Part shown: piece after piece, positions 13,029-20,517 of the stretch
Layout of the letters: every line of letters begins with the position of its first letter
How positions within the stretch are numbered: the first letter of the stretch is position 1
Virus record (IMG/VR): IMGVR_UViG_3300042923_000867
Coordinates: 1 to 20,517 of that record
Origin: a virus
Length of the DNA stretch: 20,517 nt
Reading direction: 5' to 3' (one strand)
Made by a program: the position numbers and the translations under genes
The notes under the pieces: model-generated
Databases searched by the model: none
What the model was told of the DNA's origin: nothing
Seen by the model: only the letters and a program-made list of their open reading frames with translations

Positions 13029-14741
13029 TCAGAAGCCCATGGCGCGGCCGGGGCGCTTACGGCGCTTGGCGAAGCCAGGGTCGGCGAGGACGCGGGTACG
13101 GGCCATGCGGGCGAGCATGAGCGCCGCGAGGGCGTCGATCTTCTTGGGGGACTCGCGCGTCTCCTTGCCGAAGCTCACGCCCCAGCGGTTGATGCGGCGG
13201 CGGCCGTTGAGCACGTGCCGGGTGAGAATCTCGTGCCCCTGTAGGCCCGCGCTCTCGCCCGCGTAGAGCTCGTGGGCGCGCCATGGCACCTCGGCGTCTA
13301 GGAAAGCTCGGTTGAGGGCCTCAGCGGCGCGCGTGGTGTCCATCTGATGGCCGCGCATGTCCCAGCCGATGGCGTGGCGCGTGGTGGCCTTCACGAGGAG
13401 CCGCTCGCCGTACTCGTCGCGCCATGCGTCGATGTCGGTTTCCCAGTAGGCGACATCCGAGAAGTGAGCGACCACGTCGAGGTGTGTGTAGGCCCACGCG
13501 ACGGCGTCGCGCACGTCGGCCTTGGGCACGGTCCAGCCGACGCCCGCTGGGCCTTCTGGCTTCTCCCAAATGGCGATGAGGAAGGGCGCGCCGTCGTCGA
13601 TGCGGACGGCGACGAGGGCCGTGGAGTCGTCAGTGAGCGAGCCGTCGAAGCCGAGCGCGACAGTGTCGCCGGTCGAGCGCCCGCGCCGGTCGACCTCGCC
13701 GAGCTTGAGCTCGGGGATGTCGTCGTCGCGGTTGGCGTGCCACGCCGTCGGCGCGACCCATGAGTCGGCCGCGGCGACGATCTGGTTGAGGTAGAAGCGC
13801 CGGGCCTCTTCCGGGGGTGTGTCGGGGTCGTAGACCTCGGCGAGGATGCGGTCTAGGTCGATCCACGTGGCATCGCCGTAGGCGAGGCGGAGGCCCTCGC
13901 GCACGTCGGCGGGGTCGGCGAGGTCCACGTCGCCGGGAGCCTCGCGGGAGTCGTAGAGGATGCCCGTGTCGTCGGGCGAGAGGGCGCGGCCCTCCTTGAT
14001 GGCGAGGTAGGCGAGGTAGGAGCGCTCGGCTACGGAGTCCTGCCCCGGCGCGTGGGCGTTGGTCGTCTCGATGCCGCGCCCGCTGACCTTGGCGAGGTTG
14101 CGGCGGAGGACGCGAGCGAGCTTGACGCCGCCGTTGGACTCGGTCCAGTGGTGCGTCTCGTCCATGATCGTGAACGAAGGCCGCGCGCCCTCCTGGGTGG
14201 CCGCGTTGGCGGTCACGGGGACGATCTTCCCGCCGTCGGGCAGGATGATGCGGGTCTTGCCGATGCTGTTCGCGTCGAAGCCGAGGAGCTCCGCGAGCTC
14301 GACGCCCTCGGCCATGGCGCGGATCGCCGCCATGGTGTTCTCGGTCTGCGTCTCGGAGACGCCCGCGATGACAACCCACGGCATCGGGTGAGGGACGCCG
14401 ACGACGCCGCCGAGGGCAGATGCGTCGAGCGAGTGGAAGCGCACGGGGCCGCCGAGCTCGGCGAGGGAGATAGCGGCCAGGAAGGGCGACTTGCCCCAGC
14501 CCTTGGAGCGGCGGAGGACGGCGCGGCGGAAGCGGAAGCGCCCGCGGGCGTCGACCGCGTAGAACCATAGGAGGAAGTTGAGTTGCTCGGGCGTCAGCAC
14601 GAAGGGCTCGCCCGCGTGGTCGCCGTCAGGCTGGATGAGGTAGCCCTCGATCCACTCGGCGACGGCGAAGCCGAGCGTCAGGACGCTCCCGTCGAGGGGG
14701 AAGTCCTCGACCGTGAGGACGGCGCGGCGCTTACGTGCCAT
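13029..14741 (-). CDS. terL: Terminase large subunit
   Basis: The gene encodes 570 residues from ATG at 14741, with AGGAGG six bases upstream. The ATPase half has a Walker A-like SKGWGKS at 79-85 and a Walker B TIMDE ending at D194-E195, followed by HHW. The nuclease half has GFDGS with D366, SDVAYW with D429, and KKIDALAALMLA with D536, the three acidic residues expected for an RNase H-type terminase nuclease. It would pump DNA through the portal and cut it at packaging ends. The small subunit gene ends 19 bases upstream and the portal gene follows within 30 bases. All catalytic motifs appear intact. Confidence 0.97.
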   Translation of the reverse strand: MARKRRAVLTVEDFPLDGSVLTLGFAVAEWIEGYLIQPDGDHAGEPFVLTPEQLNFLLWFYAVDARGRFRFRRAVLRRSKGWGKSPFLAAISLAELGGPVRFHSLDASALGGVVGVPHPMPWVVIAGVSETQTENTMAAIRAMAEGVELAELLGFDANSIGKTRIILPDGGKIVPVTANAATQEGARPSFTIMDETHHWTESNGGVKLARVLRRNLAKVSGRGIETTNAHAPGQDSVAERSYLAYLAIKEGRALSPDDTGILYDSREAPGDVDLADPADVREGLRLAYGDATWIDLDRILAEVYDPDTPPEEARRFYLNQIVAAADSWVAPTAWHANRDDDIPELKLGEVDRRGRSTGDTVALGFDGSLTDDSTALVAVRIDDGAPFLIAIWEKPEGPAGVGWTVPKADVRDAVAWAYTHLDVVAHFSDVAYWETDIDAWRDEYGERLLVKATTRHAIGWDMRGHQMDTTRAAEALNRAFLDAEVPWRAHELYAGESAGLQGHEILTRHVLNGRRRINRWGVSFGKETRESPKKIDALAALMLARMARTRVLADPGFAKRRKRPGRAMGF

Positions 14742-14760
14742 GTGGCACCTCCTGAGGGCC

Positions 14761-15240
14761 TCAGAAGGGCGCGGGCTCGGGGCCGTCAGCCTCCTCGGGC
14801 TCGTTGTGCTTGGCGCGCGCGGCTTCGAGCCGTGCGGCGATGTCGTTGGGCTTGAGCTCGGTCACGAGCGCGAGCTTGGGGGCCTCGTCGGGCCGCTCGA
14901 TCTTGATTCGAGCGCGGAGACGGTCGGCGTAGGTCGCGCCGAGGCGCTCCTCGTTCATCCGAATCTCGGACATGGCCGCCGCGGATGGCGATTCCATGTG
15001 CCGCTCGACCATCGGGGCCAGGAGCGACAGGCGGAGCCAGTCAGTGGCCTCGAAGAGGGCCGCCTGAGGCGAGCGACGCCATACGTCGTACCATGCGAGC
15101 GTGGCGGGGCTGTACTCGCCGACGAGCTCGGGGCCGCGGAGCTCGCCGTCGTCCTCGACGGTCGTGAACTCGGACGCGCGGCGGCGTGTGTCGCGCTCGC
15201 GCTGGCGGTGCGTGCTGGGTAGGGGGCCGGTTCCGGCCAT
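14761..15240 (-). CDS. terS: Terminase small subunit
   Basis: The gene encodes 159 residues from ATG at 15240, chosen because GAGGAGG lies eight bases upstream. The frame stays open further upstream, but that extension is low-complexity and crosses the HNH gene. The start MAGTGPLPSTHRQRERDTRR, then SPATLAWYDVWRRSPQAALFEATDW and MSEIRMNEERLGATYADRLRARI, match the general pattern of actinophage small terminases: a basic Pro/Arg N-terminus, a 'WY..W..S.Q...F...DW' core and a helical second half. It would recognise the packaging site and load the large subunit encoded next. The assignment rests on pattern and position. Confidence 0.85.
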   Translation of the reverse strand: MAGTGPLPSTHRQRERDTRRRASEFTTVEDDGELRGPELVGEYSPATLAWYDVWRRSPQAALFEATDWLRLSLLAPMVERHMESPSAAAMSEIRMNEERLGATYADRLRARIKIERPDEAPKLALVTELKPNDIAARLEAARAKHNEPEEADGPEPAPF

Positions 15241-15379
15241 AGCTGGCCTCCTCGGCCTCTCTGTAGGGGGTGTGGGGGTGTCCCTCCCGCGACCCCCAGA
15301 CTCGCGCGCACAGGGAGACGCTATGCCGCTCCGGGAGGGAAGAGGGGGGCCGCCAGTTGAAGCCGACCTCGCCGCGGAG
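15241..15379 (-). other. Intergenic gap between HNH and small terminase genes, possible cos/pac region
   Basis: The gap is 139 bases and has no ORF. It contains a nine-base inverted repeat (TCCCTCCCG at 15281-15289, CGGGAGGGA at 15332-15340) and several G-runs. Phages with an HNH gene beside the terminase genes often cut cohesive ends nearby, so this is a candidate packaging region, but nothing in it is diagnostic. Confidence 0.3.
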
Positions 15380-15685
15380 TCAGCGCCGGATGAAGGCCGG
15401 ATGAGGCTCGGCAGGGGCGGCCATGGTGGGCCGGGGCTTGCGAGCGGCGGCCCCCTCTTGCGAGCTCTTGCGCGCGTGGTGCCATTGGCATAGGGCCTGG
15501 AGGTTGTCGAGGTCGTGGTCATCACCCGCGACGACGTGGTCGCATTGGTTGGCCCACTCACCACAGAGGCGGCCCTCAGAGTCCCGTGCCTGGCATCGGT
15601 AGGCGTCCCGCCGTAGGACACGCATGCGGCGGATGCTCCAGTCGTCGGGTAGGCGACTCTTACGGTCACTCGTATCCCATGGCAT
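15380..15685 (-). CDS. HNH endonuclease
   Basis: The gene encodes 101 residues from ATG at 15685, with AGGAGG five bases upstream; the longer frame above it is rejected because it lacks such a site. The fold signature is clear: CQARDSEGRLCG with Cys31 and Cys41, then QCDHVV (Cys48, Asp49, His50), DNLQALC (Asn61, Cys66) and QWHHARK (His69, His70, Lys73). This is the treble-clef HNH motif with four structural cysteines. Small HNH proteins beside terminase genes are required for cos cleavage and packaging in several phages. By position this is likely a packaging partner rather than a homing enzyme. Confidence 0.93.
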   Translation of the reverse strand: MPWDTSDRKSRLPDDWSIRRMRVLRRDAYRCQARDSEGRLCGEWANQCDHVVAGDDHDLDNLQALCQWHHARKSSQEGAAARKPRPTMAAPAEPHPAFIRR

Positions 15686-15721
15686 AGGCCCTCCTGGGGG
15701 CGGGTGTGGGTGCACGACAAA

Positions 15722-15761
15722 GCCCCCGTACACGGCCCCTCATGGGGGCTGTGCCGGGGGC
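15722..15761 (-). terminator. Terminator-like hairpin between tRNA-Asn and HNH gene
   Basis: The arms GCCCCCGTACACGGCCCC and GGGGGCTGTGCCGGGGGC pair with a few mismatches across a four-base TCAT loop. On the coding strand a TTTGTCGTGC tail follows. It probably ends the tRNA transcript. Confidence 0.7.
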
Positions 15762-15870
15762 GGCCTAGGGGCTCTTGTGAAGGGCCTCACCTAGGGGGTG
15801 CACTCTGCTGTGAGCGCGGATGGTGCGCCCGCTTGCCGGGGAGGACACTCCCGGGGCGGGCGGTATGGGG

Positions 15871-16719: not shown

Positions 16720-16754
16720 GGTTACAGCGTACACGCGTTTACACACTCACGCAA
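16719..16754 (-). promoter_or_regulatory. Leaderless cassette promoter 1
   Basis: The -35 TTGCGT (16749-16754), a 17-base spacer and the -10 TACGCT (16726-16731) are followed by six bases and the ATG. The spacer contains GTGTAAACG (16736-16744) continuing into CGTGTAC, so a regulator bound there would cover the core promoter. Confidence 0.85.
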
Positions 16755-17071: not shown

Positions 17072-17107
17072 GTGTCCCACAGTACACGCGTTTACACACT
17101 CGCGCAA
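17071..17107 (-). promoter_or_regulatory. Leaderless cassette promoter 2
   Basis: -35 TTGCGC (17102-17107), a 17-base spacer with GTGTAAACG at 17089-17097, and -10 TACTGT (17079-17084), then seven bases to the ATG. An ACACGGCGTGT palindrome lies just upstream, near 17118-17128. Confidence 0.85.
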
Positions 17108-17541: not shown

Positions 17542-17576
17542 GCTTCGATAGTACACGCGTTTACACGCTCACACAA
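17541..17576 (-). promoter_or_regulatory. Leaderless cassette promoter 3
   Basis: -35 TTGTGT (17571-17576), a 17-base spacer with GTGTAAACG at 17558-17566, and -10 TACTAT (17548-17553), then six bases to the ATG. Confidence 0.86.
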
Positions 17577-18939: not shown

Positions 18940-19098
18940 TCAGCGGGTCAAGTTGTCCAGAGCGGCCTGCCACTCGGCGCGCGAGCGGCGCTGACGACGG
19001 ACCATGTCCTTGAGGCCGAGCTTCTCCGCCTTGGCGATGTTCTCGGTCGCCGAGGCGATGCAGTAGCGGAGGTTCTCGATGGCTTCTTCGTTCGTCAT
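18940..19098 (-). CDS. Small helical protein, leaderless first gene of the four-gene operon
   Basis: The gene encodes 52 residues: MTNEEAIENLRYCIASATEN, then KAEKLGLKDMVRRQRRSRAEW and a short helical end. It is nearly all helix, with a basic RRQRRSR patch. ATG 19098 is six bases from the -10 TACGCT. The other three genes of the unit have their own AAAGGA or overlapping starts, so only this first gene depends on a leaderless start. Function is unknown. Confidence 0.8.
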   Translation of the reverse strand: MTNEEAIENLRYCIASATENIAKAEKLGLKDMVRRQRRSRAEWQAALDNLTR

Positions 19099-19133
19099 AC
19101 CTACAGCGTACACGCGTTTACACACTCACACAA
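19098..19133 (-). promoter_or_regulatory. Leaderless cassette promoter 4 (operon)
   Basis: -35 TTGTGT (19128-19133), a 17-base spacer with GTGTAAACG at 19115-19123, and -10 TACGCT (19105-19110), then six bases to the ATG. An ACACGGCGTGT palindrome lies upstream, near 19145-19155. Confidence 0.86.
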
Positions 19134-19846: not shown

Positions 19847-19882
19847 GTGTCCCACAGTACACGCGTTTACACGCTCGCGCAA
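19846..19882 (-). promoter_or_regulatory. Leaderless cassette promoter 5
   Basis: -35 TTGCGC (19877-19882), a 17-base spacer with GTGTAAACG at 19864-19872, and -10 TACTGT (19854-19859), then seven bases to the ATG. Confidence 0.86.
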
Positions 19883-19988: not shown

Positions 19989-20192
19989 TCACTCCGAGCG
20001 CTTGCGCCGCTTGCGGACGACGCGACGGCCAGCGCTCACGAAGGGCGCGAGGGCCGCGTCGAGCGCCTCGCGGTTGGCCGCCGAGAGGTCGAGCTCGTAG
20101 GCGGTGCCGTTGAGCGAGAGGGTGACCTCCCGCACGTCGTCGCCCTCGGTGCCGTCAAGGTCGTCGACTAGAACGATGATGCTTTTCTTCAT
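19989..20192 (-). CDS. Lsr2-like protein with only the N-terminal dimerisation domain
   Basis: The gene encodes 67 residues from ATG at 20192 (MKKSIIVLVDDLDG). Residues 8-59, with VDDLDGTEGDDVREVTLSLN, TAYELDLSAANREALDAAL and PFVSAGRRV, match the N-terminal half of actinobacterial Lsr2, the H-NS-like xenogeneic silencer. The usual C-terminal DNA-binding domain with its RGR AT-hook is absent; the protein stops after a basic RRVVRKRRKRSE tail. Full Lsr2 is about 110 residues. Known biology: the N-terminal domain drives dimers and oligomers of Lsr2-family silencers. Inference: this protein could form mixed oligomers with host Lsr2 and weaken silencing. A TACGCT -10 lies six bases before the ATG, so the start is probably leaderless, but there is no good -35. 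Confidence 0.9.
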   Translation of the reverse strand: MKKSIIVLVDDLDGTEGDDVREVTLSLNGTAYELDLSAANREALDAALAPFVSAGRRVVRKRRKRSE

Positions 20193-20204
20193 GCATCGAG
20201 CGTA
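20192..20204 (-). promoter_or_regulatory. Leaderless -10 element of the Lsr2-like gene
   Basis: TACGCT at 20199-20204 is followed by six bases and the ATG, as in the cassettes. The -35 region falls inside the preceding hairpin and reads TCAGTG, a poor match, so the promoter may be weak or activator-dependent. Confidence 0.5.
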
Positions 20205-20206
20205 AC

Positions 20207-20240
20207 AAAGGCCCCCGAGCTCACTGAGTCGGGGGCCTTT
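20207..20240. terminator. Bidirectional terminator hairpin after rtcB
   Basis: AAAGGCCCCCGA and TCGGGGGCCTTT form a perfect 12-bp stem extended by CTC/GAG near the loop. The A and T runs on both sides make it an intrinsic terminator in either direction. Confidence 0.9.
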
Positions 20241-20242
20241 GG

Positions 20243-20251
20243 CGTTTACAC
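20243..20251 (-). promoter_or_regulatory. GTGTAAACG motif between rtcB and its terminator
   Basis: An exact 9-mer copy (CGTTTACAC on the plus strand) in the short gap after the rtcB stop. It is not part of a recognisable promoter, which fits a stoperator-like position at a transcript end. Confidence 0.55.
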
Positions 20252-20262
20252 GCGCGGGCGGG

Positions 20263-20517
20263 TCAGCCCTTCACGCAGAGGAGCGTGTCGAGCTTCTCGA
20301 CGACCTCGACGAGGTCGGCTTGCGCCGCGATGACATCGTCGAGGTTCTTGTAGGCGAGGCTGATTTCGTCGATGACGCCCTCGTCGGTGCGCGCCTCGAT
20401 GCCCGCCATGGTGCGCTTCACGTCCTCGACCGTGTAGAGGCGCTTGGCCGCCGAGCGGGAGAGCTTGCGCCCTGCCCCGTGGCTCGCCGACTGGAAGCTC
20501 AGGGGGTTGCCCTTGCC
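20263..20517 (-). CDS. rtcB: RtcB-type RNA ligase, C-terminal 84 residues (5' part outside window)
   Basis: The frame is open from the window edge to TGA at 20263. It begins GKGNPLSFQSASHGAGRKLSR, in which SHGAGR is the signature that carries the guanylated histidine of RtcB ligases, as I recall the family. It continues RTDEGVIDEISLAYKNLDDVI and DLVEVVEKLDTLLCVKG, both close to the end of bacterial RtcB. RtcB seals 2',3'-cyclic phosphate and 5'-OH RNA ends using GTP and Mn. In phages it is thought to repair tRNAs cut by host anticodon nucleases. The start and metal-binding sites lie outside the window. Confidence 0.93.
   Translation of the reverse strand, partial: GKGNPLSFQSASHGAGRKLSRSAAKRLYTVEDVKRTMAGIEARTDEGVIDEISLAYKNLDDVIAAQADLVEVVEKLDTLLCVKG

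Follow-up and report, generated by a model that had tools for sequence, protein, structure and literature searches.

We identified lsr2-N, on the minus strand at 19989..20192, as a real gene that encodes the dimerisation domain of Lsr2 followed by an Arg/Lys-rich tail. We put the probability that its product co-assembles with host Lsr2 and weakens silencing or bridging, as a dominant-negative, at roughly one in two. The window is 20,517 bases long and makes up an entire IMG/VR record; the phage from which this fragment derives is related to Honk and Cen1621, Microbacterium phages of the genus Zetavirus, and from this relationship we infer Microbacterium as the host genus.

An Lsr2 dimerisation domain without the DNA-binding half

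The gene is a complete open reading frame of 67 codons, with its ATG at 20192 and its TGA at 19991-19989, and the product is MKKSIIVLVDDLDGTEGDDVREVTLSLNGTAYELDLSAANREALDAALAPFVSAGRRVVRKRRKRSE. Residues 2-58 match the Lsr2 dimerization domain PF11774 (E=9e-20, 70.5 bits against a cut-off of 29.6 bits), and all 67 residues match phrog_6509 (E=7e-24), a phage family of 70 positions that is already annotated as 'Lsr2-like DNA bridging protein'. The crystal structure of the N-domain of M. tuberculosis Lsr2 (4e1p) is matched by the sequence (E=6e-8) and is also the top fold match of the predicted structure (prob 1.00, TM 0.60-0.70), in a model that is itself only moderate (pLDDT 72). The core dimer residues D11, D12, Y32, D35, L36, L44 and L48 are all kept, as is the chain-linking Lys4. 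Comparison with the Cen1621 homologue gives dN < dS, a weak indication in a GC-rich gene of 67 codons. The assignment to the N-terminal half of Lsr2 that had been made in the sequence-only reading is borne out by these matches, and its anatomy, an N-domain with a basic tail and no DNA-binding half, is as had been described.

The C-terminal AT-hook DNA-binding domain of Lsr2, PF23359, which full-length Lsr2 controls do match, was found neither in the lsr2-N protein nor anywhere in the 20.5-kb contig, which is a fragment; the complete genomes of Honk and of Cen1621, Biscayne and Ozzie, the last three of which carry N-only relatives, gave no match either. A second phage gene supplying the missing half, which had been named earlier as an argument against an antagonist, was accordingly not found in the contig fragment or in the three complete carrier genomes. 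A frameshifted or decayed full-length lsr2 was considered and rejected, since none of the three frames downstream of the lsr2-N stop holds a remnant of the C-terminal half; lsr2-N is not a damaged gene. It is highly improbable that a once full-length phage lsr2 is in decay here: the tail does stop where the full-length linker begins, and one viral protein consists of the N-domain and then an unrelated tail, but the lsr2-N reading frame is clean, relatives at 47-69% identity keep a similar length and tail, and the gene has a transcription-start-like element of its own. The viral protein with the unrelated tail is the second lsr2 product of a contig with two such genes (L018/L142, IMGVR_UViG_2939453919), the other being full-length (L011); it has 92 aa, its tail is Arg-rich, and it has no PF23359.

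The closest relative is Cen1621 gp69 (ON970568), annotated as 'Lsr2-like DNA bridging protein', an N-only protein of 69 aa that is 69% identical to the lsr2-N product. It has the same basic tail and lies at the same end of a related genome with the same rtcB; it differs in being four genes away from rtcB, which lsr2-N adjoins. Further N-only relatives are Biscayne gp20 (69 aa) and Ozzie gp47 (65 aa). A scan of IMG/VR with a single sequence returned nothing, and the viral loci came from alignment queries; a mixed query yielded 51 Lsr2 loci, of which ten code for N-only proteins (65-74 aa) and most others for full-length Lsr2, so that the N-only form is no isolated accident. An apparent N-only Lsr2 of 66 aa also occurs in a bacterial assembly, on an Amycolatopsis kentuckyensis contig (L042), where Asp28 and Arg45 are kept and the basic tail is weaker. 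Honk, the nearest complete phage, has no Lsr2 at all, and lsr2-N is therefore an accessory gene.

A tree built from the N-domain alone, with 57 columns and 104 rows, scatters the N-only proteins: lsr2-N and Cen1621 group together (99/92) near cluster EE-like proteins, the Streptomyces phage form is nested in a clade made up of full-length phage Lsr2 proteins (97/92, 98/89), and a further N-only protein (L016) is placed elsewhere again. The best tree needs five changes between full-length and N-only forms, and its well-supported branches force three; the AU test does not reject a tree that unites the N-only forms in one clade (p=0.165). Judged from these sequences, phage Lsr2 has likely been truncated repeatedly and independently.

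Neighbourhood and putative promoter of lsr2-N

Five exact copies of GTGTAAACGCGTGTAC stand ahead of genes at 16.7-19.9 kb (16729-16744, 17082-17097, 17551-17566, 19108-19123 and 19857-19872, all on the minus strand), where shuffling gives an expectation of 0. Each copy immediately precedes a small gene, in most cases one that opens with ATGACGAAC (MTN), and by eye the layout is a TTG-like hexamer, 17 bp, a TAC-like -10 and an ATG 6-7 bases on. The element appears to be a repeated leaderless promoter and perhaps, given the near-palindrome GTAAACG/CGTGTAC, an operator too. Outside the window, Honk has seven exact copies and Cen1621 has the variant GTTTACACGCGTGTAC. An exact 11-bp piece of the element, CGTGTAAACGC, is found at 20242..20252 on the minus strand, and the placement of lsr2-N beside this cassette array in the sequence-only reading was therefore right.

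Upstream of lsr2-N lies an rtcB-like RNA ligase gene (20263..20517, minus strand; PF01139, E=2.8e-24), of which the contig holds the 3' end before the gene runs off. Between the two genes is a strong G+C hairpin followed by TTTGTT (20206..20241, minus strand; fold z=-4.26, MFE -40.9 kcal/mol), probably the rtcB terminator. A -10-like element, TACGCT, stands 6 nt before the lsr2-N ATG (20199..20204, minus strand) at a spacing of the leaderless type. The cassette element is thus split here, with its first 11 bp before the hairpin and TACGCT after it, unlike in the other cassettes. In Streptomyces phage Ozzie, a terminator-like hairpin directly upstream of lsr2 (L005) can also be seen by eye.

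A leaderless start had been proposed for the gene. In its favour, the upstream region has no Shine-Dalgarno sequence, and the arrangement TACGCT-N6-ATG recurs identically upstream of two cassette genes with starts near 19098 and 16720; against it, the same region has no clear -35 element, and the strong hairpin lies ~13 nt ahead of the ATG. On these signals the gene may plausibly have a leaderless start, and the promoter-like spacing would fit the early expression proposed for it. Elsewhere in the window, at ~14700-15800, an HNH endonuclease-like gene adjoins the terminase genes; in Honk these lie at the two opposite ends of the genome, and the contig therefore probably spans the point where the ends of the phage genome are joined.

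A changed dimer contact at residues 28 and 45

A salt bridge between Asp28 and Arg45, across the two subunits, is implicated in the dimerisation of M. tuberculosis Lsr2 (Summers 2012, PMC3374832). By alignment column, the corresponding residues of lsr2-N are Asn28 (codon at 20109..20111, minus strand) and Asp45 (codon at 20058..20060, minus strand), so this salt bridge is not possible in an lsr2-N homodimer; Cen1621 gp69 has Asp28/Asp45. The Asp28/Arg45 pair is present in 100 of 126 full-length Lsr2 proteins. Arg45 is found in 103/126 full-length proteins versus 1/12 phage N-only proteins (lost in 23/126 versus 11/12), and in none of the nine N-only proteins of the Microbacterium-phage type. 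Asp45 is the residue in six of the 12 phage N-only proteins, lsr2-N and Cen1621 among them. Acidic residues at position 45 are also seen in six full-length Lsr2 proteins elsewhere; the change is therefore not confined to the N-only form, and it probably goes back for the most part to a single event within one clade.

A potential target is nearly always present in the presumed host group. An Lsr2 match was obtained in 77 of the 79 genomes searched from a Microbacterium genus group, mostly in 1-3 copies and in up to 5, and nearly all of these matches lie in open frames of more than 110 codons. At residue 45 the sampled Microbacterium Lsr2 proteins have nearly always Arg, or Tyr/Phe in a neighbouring paralogue, and never an acidic residue; some copies are Asn28/Arg45. 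In many Microbacterium genomes (L160, L161, L168-L177), two full-length lsr2 genes occur as neighbours separated by ~1.2 kb; one of them has Arg45, the other Tyr/Phe45 and mostly Glu28, and it is possible that such pairs are paralogues kept apart by a changed dimer contact.

With Asn28 and Asp45 in lsr2-N, it cannot simply be assumed that the protein dimerises with host Lsr2, a caution that the sequence-only reading did not include. A mixed dimer with an Asp28 or Glu28 host protein would lose one contact and would have acid facing acid, whereas the Microbacterium copies with Asn28/Arg45 would tolerate lsr2-N better.

Proposed action on host Lsr2, alternatives and precedents

In the reading that we favour, the lsr2-N product would be a small self-associating protein with the dimer/oligomer fold of Lsr2 and without the AT-hook domain. 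It would co-assemble with host Lsr2, in a mixed dimer or by way of the N-terminal beta-strand with which dimers are joined into chains, and the filament would gain links that have no specific DNA-binding half, so that silencing or bridging by Lsr2 would be weakened. The basic tail may hold such mixed complexes loosely on DNA, with no AT preference. Such an anatomy would suggest an interaction with host Lsr2, from which a loss of silencing and a benefit to the phage might follow. Wet-lab precedents within the family make the dominant-negative reading plausible: overexpression of an N-terminal fragment of CgpS led to derepression and to induction of prophage CGP3, as described in PMC7074111, and the DNA-binding-dead Lsr2 R82A disturbs DNA binding by the wild-type protein in vitro and is dominant-negative in Streptomyces (PMC6584129). 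Like lsr2-N, these are Lsr2-family proteins deficient in DNA binding; their self-association is intact and they act as dominant-negatives in vivo, but they are artificial constructs in which the dimer contact is unaltered.

Any benefit to the phage would more likely lie outside its own genes. The contig is 70% GC and contains no 100-bp stretch below 55% GC and no AT-rich island; a benefit through the host or through rival phages is therefore more likely, and the sequence-only proposal of anti-silencing, as far as the phage's own genes are concerned, is weakly motivated. AT-rich phage regions in need of de-silencing were sought in the same GC scan and were not borne out in the contig. Host Lsr2 helps many mycobacteriophages (PMC10066036), and disabling it therefore need not benefit a phage.

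The basic tail bears on another reading, in which the product would itself be an architectural protein that binds DNA, a dimer whose two Arg/Lys-rich tails bridge or coat phage or host DNA without AT preference and independently of host Lsr2. We consider this unlikely. The tail (residues 56-67, RRVVRKRRKRSE; codons at 19992..20027, minus strand) contains RVVRKRRKRSE, with six K/R within one six-residue stretch, and a density of at least four K/R per six residues just past the domain is found in 12/12 phage N-only proteins sampled versus 23/126 full-length proteins at the same place; the loss of Arg45 could, in addition, insulate such a protein from host Lsr2. However, the association between tail and truncation, with a raw p of ~3e-8, is not significant on independent tree pairs, in which relatedness is allowed for, and the idea of the tail as a trait selected with truncation was dropped on that ground. 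Full-length linkers are often basic too, such as the proximal linker RVGGRRRGRSG of M. tuberculosis Lsr2, making the tail an ordinary proximal linker in some full-length proteins, and lsr2-N has no AT-hook or other DNA-binding family.

The residue-45 counts invite two further readings. The contact may have been rewired in the Microbacterium-phage group, with Asp45 favouring a homodimer apart from host Lsr2 that would poison filaments only via the chain-linking N-terminal beta-strand, or that would serve as a stand-alone minimal DNA-binding dimer; we regard this as quite doubtful. If true, the protein would be a phage-made form with changed assembly specificity and not a plain truncation. It is very unlikely that the product is an insulated homo-oligomer, or the partner of another phage protein, that makes no contact with host Lsr2 through an interface rewired at Asn/Gln28 and Asp45: the frequency of Asp45 in phage N-only proteins, the absence of Arg from the Microbacterium type and the lack of acidic residues in the sampled host proteins are consistent with insulation, but acidic residues at this position in full-length proteins and the retention of the other core contacts argue against it. 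Finally, lsr2-N could act against other phages, a weakened host Lsr2 excluding superinfecting or co-infecting competitors. Many mycobacteriophages need host Lsr2 for productive infection, inter-phage competition has been suggested for phage lsr2 genes (both PMC10066036), and the accessory nature of the gene would fit; because the dependence of phages on Lsr2 is known from Mycobacterium only, this too appears a rather improbable explanation.

Relative to host Lsr2 (M. tuberculosis, Microbacterium), with which it shares the N-terminal dimerisation domain at ~45-50% identity and the 4e1p fold, lsr2-N differs in lacking PF23359 and in having Asp in place of Arg45. Its resemblance to H-NST, a shortened H-NS from pathogenic E. 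coli and an antagonist of the complete H-NS, extends to one feature, that of a silencer fragment without the DNA-binding domain, and is an analogy of working only: H-NST is not a family member, and the N-domains of H-NS and Lsr2 are unrelated folds (Summers 2012, PMC3374832). H-NST has been pointed to as a parallel before (Sharma et al. 2021, PMC8612146). Phage Lsr2 proteins of fewer than 80 residues without a DNA-binding domain were described in clusters BD, BK, EE and EH by Dulberger et al. 2023 (PMC10066036), who proposed a dominant-negative action. The known N-only group, phrog_6509, includes Cen1621 gp69 and proteins of cluster EE phages and Streptomyces cluster BD phages; like them, lsr2-N is phage-encoded, shorter than 80 aa, and made up of the oligomerisation domain alone with a short basic C-terminal tail. 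It differs from the truncated forms of those clusters only in being located in a Zetavirus-like contig, a phage type outside the clusters quoted as examples.

Both the phage half-Lsr2 and the dominant-negative idea are thus already published, and lsr2-N is largely known in kind; the present analysis contributes its occurrence in a Zetavirus-like phage, a search for a gene with the partner half and the finding at residue 45. The last of these makes the published dominant-negative proposal testable by two or three point mutants. If true, such a gene could switch on silent actinobacterial gene clusters in a single step. If half-proteins of this kind do disable host Lsr2, actinobacterial phages would have evolved, perhaps repeatedly, inhibitors directed at the principal protein by which foreign DNA is silenced.
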